Shown here piece by piece: positions 27,171 to 54,483 of a stretch of 64,000 bases of DNA. Under the pieces are notes generated by a model that ran no database searches, was not told where the DNA came from, and worked only from the letters and a program-made list of their open reading frames with translations. Position 1 is the first letter of the stretch. Each line of letters starts with the position of its first letter. The translations under genes were made by a program, and so were the position numbers. The stretch is from Polynucleobacter sp. 73C-SIWE (GTDB lineage Bacteria; Pseudomonadota; Gammaproteobacteria; Burkholderiales; Burkholderiaceae): NCBI RefSeq assembly GCF_018882465.1, contig NZ_JACVOK010000002.1:62001-126000 (forward strand), read 5' to 3'.

Positions 27171-27359
27171 CTAGTTCAGCCTAACTTTAGCGCTGAGTTC
27201 GTTGAGGGCGCCTCTTTTATCGACCTGGGAGAGCCTGAGAGCCTCAGTTTCAAAGTCGAGCTGGCCGGGATGAAATTGATCATCGTTTTGTAAGTCGATT
27301 ACATAAGTCCAGACAAGCTCGCGACCGCGGTTCTTAAAGACATCAACTACACGTTTCAT
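27171..27359 (-). CDS. Hypothetical protein, 62 residues
   Basis: A short soluble protein (MKRVVDVFKNRGRELVWTYV...) mixing charged and hydrophobic residues with predicted strand-helix character (ALRLSQVDKRGALNELSAKVR). No family recognised. It lies 24 bases after the DUF4239 gene on the same strand and could share its transcript. The clean frame and codon pattern make it plausibly real. Confidence 0.5.
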   Translation of the reverse strand: MKRVVDVFKNRGRELVWTYVIDLQNDDQFHPGQLDFETEALRLSQVDKRGALNELSAKVRLN

Positions 27360-27382: not shown

Positions 27383-28168
27383 TTAATTGCTGGCTGGGGA
27401 AGAGGTTTCAGTCTTAGTCTGCGTGTTTAATACGTTCTTCAGTGTAATCAAGTTTCGTGGCTCAATCCGAATAACGCCACCTCGAGGACTATCAATATCT
27501 GCAATCAAGAAAAACGAGACAGCAATAACAAAAGGGAAAATCATGAAGAGGACAATGTTCTTCTGAAAGTTACGCGCTCCAAATCCAACCAATAAGTTGG
27601 CGCAAACGGCGATAGCCGCCATGAGGAGCCAGGCGGTGCTAGGAATGCGATTCCACCAGGCAGCTTGCACGTAGCCTTGTGAATTCAGAACATCATTCAT
27701 ACCTGAGACCACCAGTGCAATCGTTGCAGTTTGGTTGCTACGAGCAGTCGGTAAAATCTCATTCCATAGATCATTCTGTAGTTGATCCGTCTTTAGATGG
27801 ATGTCCTTGATTTTTTCGCGCTCTTGTTTTGAATAGAACAGAATACGCTGATCTAAGTATTGCATGAGTAAATCTTTGGTAACCTGGCTTGCCTTCGGGG
27901 GAAGTAGGTCTGCTCGCAAATATTCCGTGCCAATCGCATTTGCTTCACTTTCCTCCAGGGTCTCCCTTAGGTCATGTCGATCAATTGCCATGGAAAAGGT
28001 AAAGCCAATCAGAAGTGCTAATAAAGTTAATGTGGCTGTTTGGATGATGCCCAGGTCTTCAGAGGTTTCAGTATCTTTAGTCCGATAGCGGCTGAGGATT
28101 GTATTGCCAAACCAAACGCAAAATGCAATTCCGAAAACAAGTAGAGGGTTGTTGAGTATTGAGCTAAT
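27383..28168 (-). CDS. DUF4239 (bestrophin-like) membrane protein with no standard start codon
   Basis: A membrane protein of about 261 residues resembling DUF4239. The family's conserved segment LLALLIGFTFSMAIDRHDLR followed by EEAN-like ESEANAIGTEYLRADLLPP is present, but the first ATG (27991) falls at the end of helix 2 inside that segment, so real coding must begin upstream. The frame is open back to the TAA of the lactate dehydrogenase gene (28171-28169), in the same frame, with no ATG, GTG or TTG. The most likely start is ATT at 28168-28166, directly after that TAA, with AGGA nine bases upstream. Four helices in total: two at the N-terminus and two near residues 175-225. Confidence 0.7.
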   Translation of the reverse strand: MSSILNNPLLVFGIAFCVWFGNTILSRYRTKDTETSEDLGIIQTATLTLLALLIGFTFSMAIDRHDLRETLEESEANAIGTEYLRADLLPPKASQVTKDLLMQYLDQRILFYSKQEREKIKDIHLKTDQLQNDLWNEILPTARSNQTATIALVVSGMNDVLNSQGYVQAAWWNRIPSTAWLLMAAIAVCANLLVGFGARNFQKNIVLFMIFPFVIAVSFFLIADIDSPRGGVIRIEPRNLITLKNVLNTQTKTETSSPASN

Positions 28169-29314
28169 TTAAAAAGTTCCTGGATACAAAATATCTTTAG
28201 TGACATTCTGGATATCGCGATGGCCAGTAAATGCCATAGTGATATCCAACTCATTCTTAATAATTTCTAGGCACTTCGTAACGCCAGCTTCACCCATGGC
28301 GCCTAAGCCATACAAAAATGGACGACCGATCATAGTACCGCGAGCGCCTAAGGCCCATGCCTTTAGAACATCTTGGCCAGATCGAATACCGCCATCCATC
28401 CATACTTCAATATCTTTGCCAACAGCTTCCACTATTCCTGGAAGAGCCTGAATGCTAGAGACAGCGCCATCCAATTGACGGCCACCGTGATTGGAAACAA
28501 TCAGGGCATCGGCCCCAGAGTTTGCAGCCATGCGCGCATCGTCCTCATCCAAGATTCCCTTGATGATGAGTTTTCCGCCCCAGAGTTTTTTAATCCACTC
28601 CACATCACTCCAGCTTAATCCTGGATCAAATTGTTCTGCAGTCCAGGAAGAAAGCGAGGACATATTTCCTACGCCGGTTGCGTGCCCCACAATATTGCGG
28701 AAAGTTCTACGTGGTGTCATCGCCATTCCAAGACACCAGCGTGGTTTAGTGGCCATATTGATCATATTCGTGATCGTCAGCTTAGGAGGGGCTGAGAGAC
28801 CGTTCTTAAGATCTTTATGACGCTGACCCAAAATTTGGAGGTCGAGAGTCAAAACTAGGGCTGAGCACTTCGCAGCTTTTGCTCGCTCAATTAAGCGCTC
28901 AATAAAACCGCGATCTTTCATTACATAGAGCTGAAACCAAAATGGTTTAGTGGTGCGTTCTGCCACATCTTCGATAGAGCAGATGCTCATCGTGGATAAA
29001 CAAAAAGGGACGCCAAATTTTTCTGCAGCTTTAGCAGCTAAAATTTCACCATCAGCATGCTGCATCCCGGTAAGTCCGGTTGGCGCAAGCGCTACTGGCA
29101 TCGTGACTTCTTGACCGACCATGGTTGTTTTGGTTGTGCGGTTAGTCATATCAACGGCAACGCGCTGACGCAACTTGATCTTCTGAAAATCAGATTCATT
29201 AGCGCGATAGGTGGATTCCGTCCAAGAACCTGAATCTGCATAGTCATAGAACATCTTGGGAGTACGTTTTTTGTGGAGTATCCGCAAGTCTTCGATATTG
29301 GTAATGATTGCCAC
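28169..29314 (-). CDS. lldD: L-lactate dehydrogenase / FMN alpha-hydroxy-acid oxidase
   Basis: A 381-residue FMN enzyme oxidising L-lactate or another 2-hydroxy acid to the keto acid, feeding the respiratory chain. Seen: FYDYADSGSWTE (N-terminal), PVALAPTGLTGMQHADGE, LYVMKDRGF, IIKGILDEDDARMA (Lys), and SNHGGRQLDGAVSS carrying the catalytic His and substrate Arg, then DGGIRSGQDVLKA. Closely followed in the same frame by the DUF4239 gene, which suggests co-translation. Confidence 0.93.
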   Translation of the reverse strand: MAIITNIEDLRILHKKRTPKMFYDYADSGSWTESTYRANESDFQKIKLRQRVAVDMTNRTTKTTMVGQEVTMPVALAPTGLTGMQHADGEILAAKAAEKFGVPFCLSTMSICSIEDVAERTTKPFWFQLYVMKDRGFIERLIERAKAAKCSALVLTLDLQILGQRHKDLKNGLSAPPKLTITNMINMATKPRWCLGMAMTPRRTFRNIVGHATGVGNMSSLSSWTAEQFDPGLSWSDVEWIKKLWGGKLIIKGILDEDDARMAANSGADALIVSNHGGRQLDGAVSSIQALPGIVEAVGKDIEVWMDGGIRSGQDVLKAWALGARGTMIGRPFLYGLGAMGEAGVTKCLEIIKNELDITMAFTGHRDIQNVTKDILYPGTF

Positions 29315-48352: not shown

Positions 48353-49177
48353 TTATTTCTTGGCATTTGGGAAGAAAAGCTGTTCACCATCAATCTTGTA
48401 GCTGGCAATCACTTCCTGCCCATTTTTAGAGATCAACCAGTCAATAAACTCTTGTCCCTGGGCTTTCTTCACGCTAGGAAACTTAGCTGGGTTGACCAGC
48501 ATCACACCATATTGATTAAAGAGCTTAGGGTCGCCTTGCACTAGGATCGTTAAATCACCACGGTTCTTAAAGCTAATCCAAGTTCCACGGTCGGCCAAGA
48601 TATAGCCATTCATCGCAGAAGCAGTGTTGAGGGCAGGACCCATACCAGAACCCGTTTCTTTGTACCAAGCAGTGCCAGGGGCGATAGCGATGCCAGCACC
48701 TTTCCAGTAACGCAGTTCGGCAGCATGTGTGCCGCTCTTATCGCCACGCGATACAAATGGCGCTTGAGCACCAGCAATCTTTTGTAGAGCCACTTGAATA
48801 TCTTTGCCACCACCCACTTTTGCAGGATCTGATTTAGGCCCGATGAGGACAAAATCGTTGTACATCACTTCATAGCGTTTTGTGGAGAATCCGTCTTCAA
48901 CAAACTTTTCTTCAGCAGCCTTGTCATGAACAAACACAACATCGGCATCGCCACGACGTCCAATATCGAGAGCCTGACCAGTACCTACCGCAACGACTTT
49001 GGCATCAATCCCCGTTTTCATTTTAAAAATAGGAAGGATGAAGTTAAAGAGGCCACTTTGCTCAGTAGAGGTAGTGGATGACACCACAATGCTTTTTTCT
49101 TGGGCATACACCTGAGAACTGCCTATCAAGATTGTTACCAGGACGCCAATAAATAGATTTGAGATTAGCTTTTTCAT
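48353..49177 (-). CDS. tupA: Tungstate ABC transporter substrate-binding protein
   Basis: A 274-residue periplasmic receptor. Seen after the signal peptide (cleavage after VYAQ): IVVSSTTSTEQSGLFNF, the TTST motif that marks tungstate receptors; GTGQALDIGRRGDADVVFVH, YNDFVLIGPKSDPA and FVSRGDKSGTHAAELRYWK. I start at the ATG at 49177; a TTG at 49186 is in frame. Its membrane and ATPase partners are not adjacent and are probably TupB/TupC at 12781-14176. Confidence 0.9.
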   Translation of the reverse strand: MKKLISNLFIGVLVTILIGSSQVYAQEKSIVVSSTTSTEQSGLFNFILPIFKMKTGIDAKVVAVGTGQALDIGRRGDADVVFVHDKAAEEKFVEDGFSTKRYEVMYNDFVLIGPKSDPAKVGGGKDIQVALQKIAGAQAPFVSRGDKSGTHAAELRYWKGAGIAIAPGTAWYKETGSGMGPALNTASAMNGYILADRGTWISFKNRGDLTILVQGDPKLFNQYGVMLVNPAKFPSVKKAQGQEFIDWLISKNGQEVIASYKIDGEQLFFPNAKK

Positions 49178-49213
49178 AGGACTCAATAAATAGTTGATTA
49201 AAACGATATCATC

Positions 49214-49256
49214 GCATACATTAATACTTATTGAATATGCAAAAAATTACATATGC
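49214..49256. promoter_or_regulatory. Candidate regulator sites between tupA and the ModE-like gene
   Basis: GCATA (49214-49218), TATGC (49236-49240) and TATGC (49252-49256, overlapping the ATG) form an inverted repeat plus an extra half-site. CGATATCATCG (49204-49214) is close by. It is a natural place for autoregulation by the divergent regulator; not a match to the E. coli ModE box. Confidence 0.3.
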
Positions 49257-53764: not shown

Positions 53765-53923
53765 ATGTATATGTTCCTGCCTTTTCTGACAGCGTTGATC
53801 GGACTTATTTTGGTCTGGTTTGAAAAGCGTCTGGCGGGCTTGGTCCTATTAGCTATTACCGTTGGAATCCTACTTGTCTGGTTCCACTCTCATGCAACTA
53901 CTCATCTCAATCTCAGCCTGTGA
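53765..53923 (+). CDS. DUF5993 small membrane protein upstream of dsbB
   Basis: A 52-residue protein with two hydrophobic helices (FLPFLTALIGLILVWF, LVLLAITVGILLVWF), a positive loop between them (EKRLAG) and a His-containing tail. It matches the DUF5993 type of small membrane protein found upstream of DsbB. Its TGA overlaps the GTG start of dsbB by three bases (GTGA), so translation is coupled. It may form a partner subunit of DsbB. Confidence 0.78.
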   Translation: MYMFLPFLTALIGLILVWFEKRLAGLVLLAITVGILLVWFHSHATTHLNLSL

Positions 53924-54483
53924 GTAAGACTTCTTTTCCGTCTTTGGCCGCACTTGGCAATCAACTGGCTCTCATTGCAATTATTGGAGTTCTGTCTTAC
54001 GCCTTTGTGGATCAGCTTTATTTTGGCGAGTTGCCTTGCCCACTCTGCCTAATGCAGCGTATTGGATTTGTAATCATTGGCTTTGCCTTAGTTCTCAATA
54101 TTCGCTGTGGTGCACACTCGGCCCATTATGGTTGGGGCATTATTGGCGGTCTTATAGGGATGATGGTTTCATTACGCCAGGTGCTTTTGCATATCTTGCC
54201 TGGAGATAAAGGCTATGGATCTACCTTTTTGGAGTTGCATTTTTATACCTGGGCCTTTGTTGGCTATATCGGCTTGCTATTAGGCCTTGCAATTTTGCTC
54301 ATGTTGCCTAATCGCGATGTTCGTTCTCGTTCCATGTTTGCAAATACCTTAGTAATCATCTTTATCCTATTGGTAGCCGGTAATTTAATTTCTACCTTAT
54401 TGGAGTGCGGCATCGGCCCCTGTGCTGATGATCCTGTGAAGTATGAGGGCTTACTTTGGTTGCGCAACCGCTTCAGTTTTTAA
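53920..54483 (+). CDS. dsbB: Disulfide bond formation protein B
   Basis: A 187-residue four-helix inner-membrane protein that reoxidises DsbA using quinone. The first periplasmic pair is CPLC (in ELPCPLCLMQR); a second pair lies near the C-terminal loop in LLECGIGPCADDP. The start is GTG at 53920, overlapping the DUF5993 stop. Here the second pair lies close to the C-terminus, as in the DUF5993-associated short DsbB branch. Confidence 0.9.
   Translation: MSKTSFPSLAALGNQLALIAIIGVLSYAFVDQLYFGELPCPLCLMQRIGFVIIGFALVLNIRCGAHSAHYGWGIIGGLIGMMVSLRQVLLHILPGDKGYGSTFLELHFYTWAFVGYIGLLLGLAILLMLPNRDVRSRSMFANTLVIIFILLVAGNLISTLLECGIGPCADDPVKYEGLLWLRNRFSF

Follow-up and report, generated by a model that had tools for sequence, protein, structure and literature searches.

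An AUU codon next to the lldD stop as the probable start of a bestrophin-like membrane protein gene in Polynucleobacter

The locus described here raises the question of where translation begins in a gene whose frame is open up to the stop codon of the gene ahead of it and offers no standard start codon over its first part. It lies in a 64,000-nucleotide (nt) stretch of the freshwater bacterium Polynucleobacter sp. 73C-SIWE (contig NZ_JACVOK010000002.1, positions 62,001 to 126,000; hereafter the window, numbered from its first letter), in which a gene for a DUF4239, or bestrophin-like, membrane protein directly follows lldD on the minus strand. The initial annotation of this stretch had listed three options for the junction, namely initiation at an AUU codon, readthrough of the lldD stop codon to give an LldD-DUF4239 fusion, and the simple loss of an ATG by mutation or sequencing error. 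Comparison of the junction across the genus and with homologues outside it indicates that the AUU is very probably the start codon of the DUF4239 gene.

Reading frame at the lldD-DUF4239 junction

The lldD gene (28169..29314, minus strand) encodes a protein of 381 amino acids (aa) of the FMN-dependent L-lactate dehydrogenase family (PF01070, E 7.3e-138). Its GTG start at 29314 is taken from the open reading frame (ORF) list alone, and its stop is a TAA at 28171-28169. Against NCBIfam, the protein scored above the cut-off of NF008398 and below that of NF033901 (LldD). On the minus strand the 3' end of the gene reads CCA GGA ACT TTT TAA, and the next triplet is ATT (28166..28168). The codons CCA GGA contain, as read from the sequence, a Shine-Dalgarno-like AGGA (28178..28181, minus strand), which is followed by nine bases, the last three of them the lldD stop, and then by the ATT.

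From the ATT the frame is open for 261 codons, and together with its stop it spans 27383..28168 on the minus strand. Codons 1-59 include no ATG, GTG or TTG, and the first in-frame ATG, at codon 60 (27989..27991, minus strand), opens an ORF of 202 aa. A Pfam profile search matched residues 32-239 to PF14023 (Bestrophin-like; E 2.6e-17, 63.6 bits against a cut-off of 32) over positions 23-231 of the 232 in the profile; DUF4239 is the older name of this family. As the match starts at residue 32, the domain begins 28 residues ahead of the first Met. When the 67 genes of the window were compared with stretches of three relatives, the longest conserved run ahead of a first standard start was that of the DUF4239 gene, at 59 codons. 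The initial annotation was thus correct that no standard start precedes the first ATG, that the ATT stands directly behind the lldD TAA with AGGA nine bases ahead, and that part of the family region is encoded upstream of the first ATG.

Conservation of the codon and of the frame behind it

A search for DUF4239 in 186 Polynucleobacter genomes (one per species, by the tool's description) gave matches in 129, including 102 of the 144 more complete genomes, and none in the other 57. We read 125 loci of the genus: in 117, lldD is present on the strand of the DUF4239 match, and the other eight are unlinked homologues without lldD. Weak matches (below about 150 bits, mostly at 22-31% identity) and second pieces of split genes were left out, although two partial matches, G072 and G035, were included. 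The counts of junctions refer to 116 genomes, that is, the 117 tandem loci minus L125, which has the C-terminal part of DUF4239 only. For codon counts on the tree and for the ratio of nonsynonymous to synonymous substitution rates (dN/dS), L112 was also removed, which left 115 rows, including five that are short or broken.

The DUF4239 frame starts with ATT in 111 of the 116 genomes, with ATG in three, with TTG in one and with ATC in one. The non-ATT starts are ATG in L109 and L111, TTG in L110 and ATC in L087; in L112 the start was taken, by our own interpretation, as an ATG two bases past its TGA. In the 111 ATT genomes the gap between the lldD stop and the ATT is 0 nt in 65, 1 nt in 45 and 2 nt in one. 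The single spacer base is T in 29 genomes, A in 14 and G in two, and the two-base spacer is AA. The start lies 0-2 nt behind lldD on the same strand in 115 of the 116 genomes, and by the above reading also 2 nt behind it in L112. Named records, which largely overlap the genomes already surveyed, agree with these counts: their 68 tandem loci comprise 36 ATT junctions with no gap, 29 with a gap of one, one with a gap of two, one ATC and the equivalent of L112. On a tree of the 116 rows built with the junction excluded and with L112 coded as ATG with a gap of two, the gap changed at least three times and the start codon at least four times.

The initial annotation had proposed that alignment with close relatives would separate an error, seen as an ATG at the junction, from a real non-standard start, seen as the same ATT. 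The ATT found in 111 of the 116 genomes points to the latter. A lost ATG or lost base, leaving the gene broken or misread, could draw on the 15-nt deletion in the first helix of the window copy and on the broken copies in some congeners. However, the same codon recurs across the genus, and the named records derive from isolates and metagenome-assembled genomes (MAGs) of many strains, so that this explanation is refuted for the start codon and keeps next to no probability.

The variable spacing likewise bears on readthrough of the lldD UAA. In the window, and in the other genomes with no gap (65 with ATT), the frame does continue past the TAA, as a fusion would need. In 46 of the 111 ATT genomes, however, one or two extra bases would put a readthrough product in the wrong frame, and DUF4239 is found in all three phases relative to lldD with the ATT retained throughout, so that neither readthrough nor any single frameshift can be the shared mechanism. 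Additionally, the near-invariant third base of the ATT is unexpected for an internal isoleucine codon, and the homologues examined outside the genus are free-standing genes. The readthrough option is therefore refuted as an explanation common to the genus, and we give it practically no weight.

Codon counts on the tree set the ATT apart from the rest of the gene. Its column showed one change among isoleucine codons, compared with 11-35 in 14 other columns in which isoleucine is at least 80% conserved. Its codon changes of any kind numbered three, whereas the median of 260 columns was 40 and the very next codon had 39. The nine Met/Trp columns, for comparison, had 0-2 codon changes each, and once seven. 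The near-invariance of this column relative to other isoleucine columns argues that the codon is kept as ATT and not as isoleucine.

The frame behind the ATT evolves as protein, as indicated by dN/dS values of 0.070 between codon 2 and the first ATG and 0.085 after it, over 16 hand-chosen pairs. The former value stands against the idea that this part of the ATT frame is unused and that translation begins further on, be it at the ATG of codon 60 (in most relatives codon 65) or at scattered GTG and TTG codons. In favour of such a start, 107 of the 115 rows have their first ATG at codon 65, and software limited to ATG, GTG and TTG would presumably have to pick one of these codons. On the other hand, the Pfam match starts at residue 32, a protein begun at the ATG would lack its first helix and half of the second, and the position of the first ATG, GTG or TTG varies widely, the commonest places each being common to just 18 of the 115 rows. 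A downstream start is accordingly very improbable, and the ATG of codon 60 is probably not the start.

Most of the homologues examined outside Polynucleobacter have standard start codons in the ATT column. With this column located by counting from a conserved Pro at position 8, ATG, GTG or TTG was found there in seven of 11 homologues (L195, L196 and L198-L206), and the remaining four start elsewhere or are unreadable; this count leaves out the further distant homologues L281-L304. In the unlinked Polynucleobacter paralogues L116-L121, an ATG is found three codons before this position. The option of AUU initiation is thus strongly upheld by the conserved ATT and by the standard starts that take its place in some relatives and in the majority of the outgroup homologues examined. 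The same comparison bears on the proposal that the ATT is part of some other signal in DNA or RNA, such as a promoter or a binding site, and that the start is a variable non-standard codon nearby. Many species do have a short block rich in A+T (TTTTTAAATT) at the junction. Nevertheless, some relatives have ATG or TTG at this very position, the seven outgroup homologues have standard starts aligned with it, and the spacer ahead of the ATT varies in length while the ATT is constant. This proposal is very improbable.

Coupling to lldD and history of the codon

The end of lldD differs according to whether DUF4239 follows. The Gly codon that carries the AGGA, about 9-11 nt ahead of the start, is GGA or GGG in 115 of the 116 genomes with DUF4239, the exception being L112 with its ATG, and in 12 of 23 lldD endings without DUF4239 (Fisher p 2e-9); among 3930 Gly codons in lldD bodies, these two codons account for 20%. 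TAA ends lldD in 115 of the 116 genomes that have DUF4239 behind it and in 15 of the 23 endings that lack it (p 1e-6). Both tests treat related genomes as independent. The 23 usable endings come from 26 of the 57 match-less genomes, which were searched for lldD, and they include two from G023, three at 72-73% identity (L246-L248) and that of L229, where a remnant of the lost gene, TAATATTCCACAC, is present with its ATT. Altogether, the bias in the Gly codon and in the stop makes the lldD ending look shaped to serve the next gene, and the near-fixed TAA hints that the stop codon, too, may matter for it.

The following mechanism is proposed. Ribosomes that have ended lldD would be held 0-2 nt upstream of the AUU by the AGGA in the last lldD codons, and would restart at the AUU. 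The initiator formylmethionyl-tRNA would read this codon with a mismatch at the third position, so that the protein would begin with Met. Since initiation factor 3 (IF3) discriminates against AUU, a small share of the ribosomes would restart, and the DUF4239 protein would be much scarcer than LldD and would depend on both lldD translation and the level of IF3. A restart is proposed because of the distance of 0-2 nt and because the title of PMC10666635 links coupling to gene overlaps or very short distances. This spacing makes reinitiation, rather than fresh initiation, at the AUU likely, and we think it fairly probable that most initiation there is by lldD-coupled ribosomes.

The alternative to reinitiation is that the AUU is the start but is reached by fresh 30S initiation, its closeness to lldD being a matter of operon packing. 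The conserved AGGA at the end of lldD would be needed for this as well. In addition, the 60-nt junction of the window is not strongly folded (-1.3 kcal/mol, z +1.45), and none of five folds of RNA at the junction was notable (z -0.98, -0.48, -0.43, +0.60 and +1.45). Further support comes from a homologue, L188 (2001-2804), which retains the ATT together with an AAAGGA motif of its own more than 200 nt behind another gene. Against fresh initiation stand the spacing of 0-2 nt in the 111 ATT genomes, the preference for TAA described above, and the expectation that a four-base motif with AUU should be weak alone. Fresh initiation is unlikely overall.

L188 also bears on the history of the codon. 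Its contig is recorded as part of a Neisseriaceae MAG, its protein is 66% identical, and it is located away from lldD, behind an unrelated membrane-protein gene that by eye is Bax-inhibitor-like. This copy reads AAAGGATTCTAAA-ATT; the leader is AAAGAAAGGATTCTAAA, then the ATT. Six codons, none of them a standard start, separate an in-frame TAG from the ATT. L188 groups with the Polynucleobacter copy L185 (support 97) and thus looks like a transferred gene that retained the ATT, although caution is due with a single MAG contig. Within the genus, the ATG/TTG trio and L108 fall together within the gap-1 group on a DNA tree of lldD and DUF4239, whereas on a protein tree with outgroups they branch outside every ATT row (support 91, not starred). 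As these trees conflict, the record fits either a single gain of ATT kept since or a gain followed by reversal; both are quick trees and were flagged for long branches.

Near-cognate starts appear in the genus at another gene as well. By eye, the apparent start of infC, the gene for IF3, is AUC in 10 and AUA in three of 13 Polynucleobacter genomes (L207, L209, L210, L213-L215, L217 and L219-L224), and in L217 and L220 a stop just upstream leaves no earlier start. These apparent starts suggest that near-cognate starts occur in the genus and make IF3 control of such starts plausible here. A rare AUU start is likely a way to hold the protein level down, and we lean towards low, IF3-limited output as the property that selection keeps.

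Several observations weigh against the AUU start and its proposed use. L188 retains the ATT without lldD, so coupling is not the sole context of the codon. The genomes are related, and counts of genomes are therefore not independent, for which the tree counts correct partly; similarly, some of the hand-chosen dN/dS pairs share a member. Several DUF4239 copies are shortened, split or reduced to remnants (L088, L114, L122, L124, L125 and L229), and as the broken copies L088, L114, L122 and L124 retain the ATT, the codon by itself is no proof of use. These copies, together with the 57 genomes without a match, indicate that the gene is dispensable, and it was probably lost repeatedly in the genus. 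The motif is AGGA only and is weaker than the extended motifs of the AUU and AUA genes of S. aureus, so output may be very low. With these points considered, we still hold it highly probable that the gene starts at AUU, from which a low level of bestrophin-like protein would be made, mostly by lldD-coupled ribosomes and limited by IF3. For the more specific proposal of a genus-wide AUU restart codon, which would set the amount of a bestrophin-like channel at a small, IF3-tuned fraction of lactate dehydrogenase, the chance appears to be about even.

Predicted protein and neighbouring frames

Models of the DUF4239 protein have a bestrophin-like fold. In a model of the orthologue L127 (mean predicted local distance difference test score, pLDDT, 86), helix 1 spans residues 8-28 and is followed by a 56-residue helix 2 at 38-93, within which the first ATG (codon 65 in relatives) falls. 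In the model of the window copy the long second helix is at 33-88 and also contains codon 60, and the first 40 residues fall in pLDDT blocks of 46-60. Both models are monomers and were built from different alignments. The best structural match of the L127 model was to chains of the bacterial bestrophin KpBest (Z 15.3, 4.5 A over 246 residues, template-modelling score about 0.6), on a scale on which, according to the comparison tool, helical proteins can reach a Z of about 13 by arrangement alone. Foldseek likewise matched KpBest, with an E of 8.2e-5 for the L127 model and 3.7e-4 for the window copy. The next matches, plant VCCN1 and animal bestrophins, had Z scores of 10.9-13.1, a range called weak for helical proteins. 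A sequence-profile search of the PDB found no solved relative up to E 1, and an NCBIfam search gave no match. The DUF4239 protein resembles KpBest in its Pfam match and modelled fold and differs from it in sequence (about 12% identity, with no sequence-profile match), its likeness to a channel being one of predicted fold alone; an anion-channel-like role would be a guess from these models.

The window copy carries a deletion of 15 nt, or five residues, in helix 1 (28121..28126, minus strand). It lies between short GCATT repeats and was unseen in 29 other loci. Judging from the model, this copy may be impaired.

Just downstream of DUF4239 is a conserved ORF of 62 aa (27171..27359, minus strand), with relatives at 96%, 86% and 75%. 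No Pfam or NCBIfam match was obtained for it, and it is possibly the third gene of the operon. Elsewhere in the window, many of the BLAST alignments from the scan of 67 genes begin a few codons ahead of the first standard start, as close relatives would lead one to expect. Of the other runs that extend to the beginning of the frame in a diverged relative, the longest were those of 53824-54480, with 32 codons, and 48356-49246, with 20 codons. The former is a DsbB match with a GTG at 53920 and a conserved frame upstream of it (53767-53920), where an out-of-frame ATG at 53767 points to a small ORF overlapping it.

Comparison with known near-cognate starts and coupled genes

Very few genes are known to begin with AUU; such starts are reportedly dealt with by Binns and Masters (2002). 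Passages of PMC9410913 describe E. coli with these two AUU-start genes, and passages of that source and of PMC4245954 describe IF3 discrimination and low output for them. The DUF4239 gene resembles both in having a near-cognate AUU start on a chromosomal gene. Unlike infC, which autoregulates, it encodes a membrane protein and starts 0-2 nt behind the lldD stop. In the genome of the window, infC appears by eye to start with ATC; pcnB, considered as a second AUU gene there, was rejected, as it appears by eye to have an ATG.

For cvfC1 (AUU) and ccpN (AUA) of S. aureus, passages of PMC13009471 give about 10% of the output of an AUG reporter in poor medium and describe very strong extended Shine-Dalgarno motifs, with cvfC1 first in its operon. 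Like these genes, DUF4239 has a near-cognate start conserved between species, whereas its motif is AGGA and its start abuts the lldD stop. In Streptomyces, sigR is the first gene of its pair. PMC5472188 describes a GTC start in 32 of 34 species, with an extensive AGGAGGTG motif, that is repressed by IF3 and sets the ratios of operon proteins. The conservation of a near-cognate start across a genus is common to sigR and DUF4239, the codon being AUU in the latter. For ainS of Vibrio fischeri and V. salmonicida, ATT starts conserved in three strains with a binding motif are put forward, as a proposal alone and at the head of the transcript, in passages of PMC5601948. DUF4239 is like ainS in that a conserved ATT is proposed as the start, and unlike it in that the ATT is at a stop-start junction.

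By its title, a report on IS911 is said to deal with AUU initiation in a two-gene element. There the AUU goes with programmed -1 frameshifting, whereas no single frameshift links the three phases of lldD and DUF4239. In the open-licence literature, searched in part, we found no AUU serving as a restart codon at a stop-start junction, IS911 being nearest. No report on Polynucleobacter and non-canonical start codons was found in the literature searched; the passages retrieved for this genus and 'start codon' concern riboswitch candidates and, as far as they go, contain no mention of AUU, infC or lldD.

Pairs in which termination is followed by reinitiation have their starts within a few bases of the upstream stop, according to PMC6728339, PMC10666635 and PMC2268962. 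The spacing of 0-2 nt behind lldD is alike in this respect, and the codon differs, as the abstract of PMC6728339 refers to ATGA and TGATG overlaps. According to PMC2268962, re-initiation falls when IF3 is added, though less where a Shine-Dalgarno sequence is present, and IF3 disfavours non-canonical starts. In vitro, more IF3 gave less use of AUU by a CAU anticodon (PMC10158994).

If the proposed mechanism is true, IF3 sets the ratio of two proteins in one operon through the restart codon. The conserved AUU, with its natural ATG, TTG and ATC variants and its spacers of 0, 1 and 2 nt, offers a ready-made comparative system, in which it could be asked whether IF3 screens restarting ribosomes like fresh ones, and why evolution retains a poor start codon. 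For gene annotation, software limited to ATG, GTG and TTG would cut at least nine N-terminal residues in 107 of the 115 rows and at least 41 in 54. Altogether, the DUF4239 gene has, at the level of sequence, the tested features of conserved AUU-start genes, and what sets it apart from the known ones is the position of its AUU at a stop-start junction.

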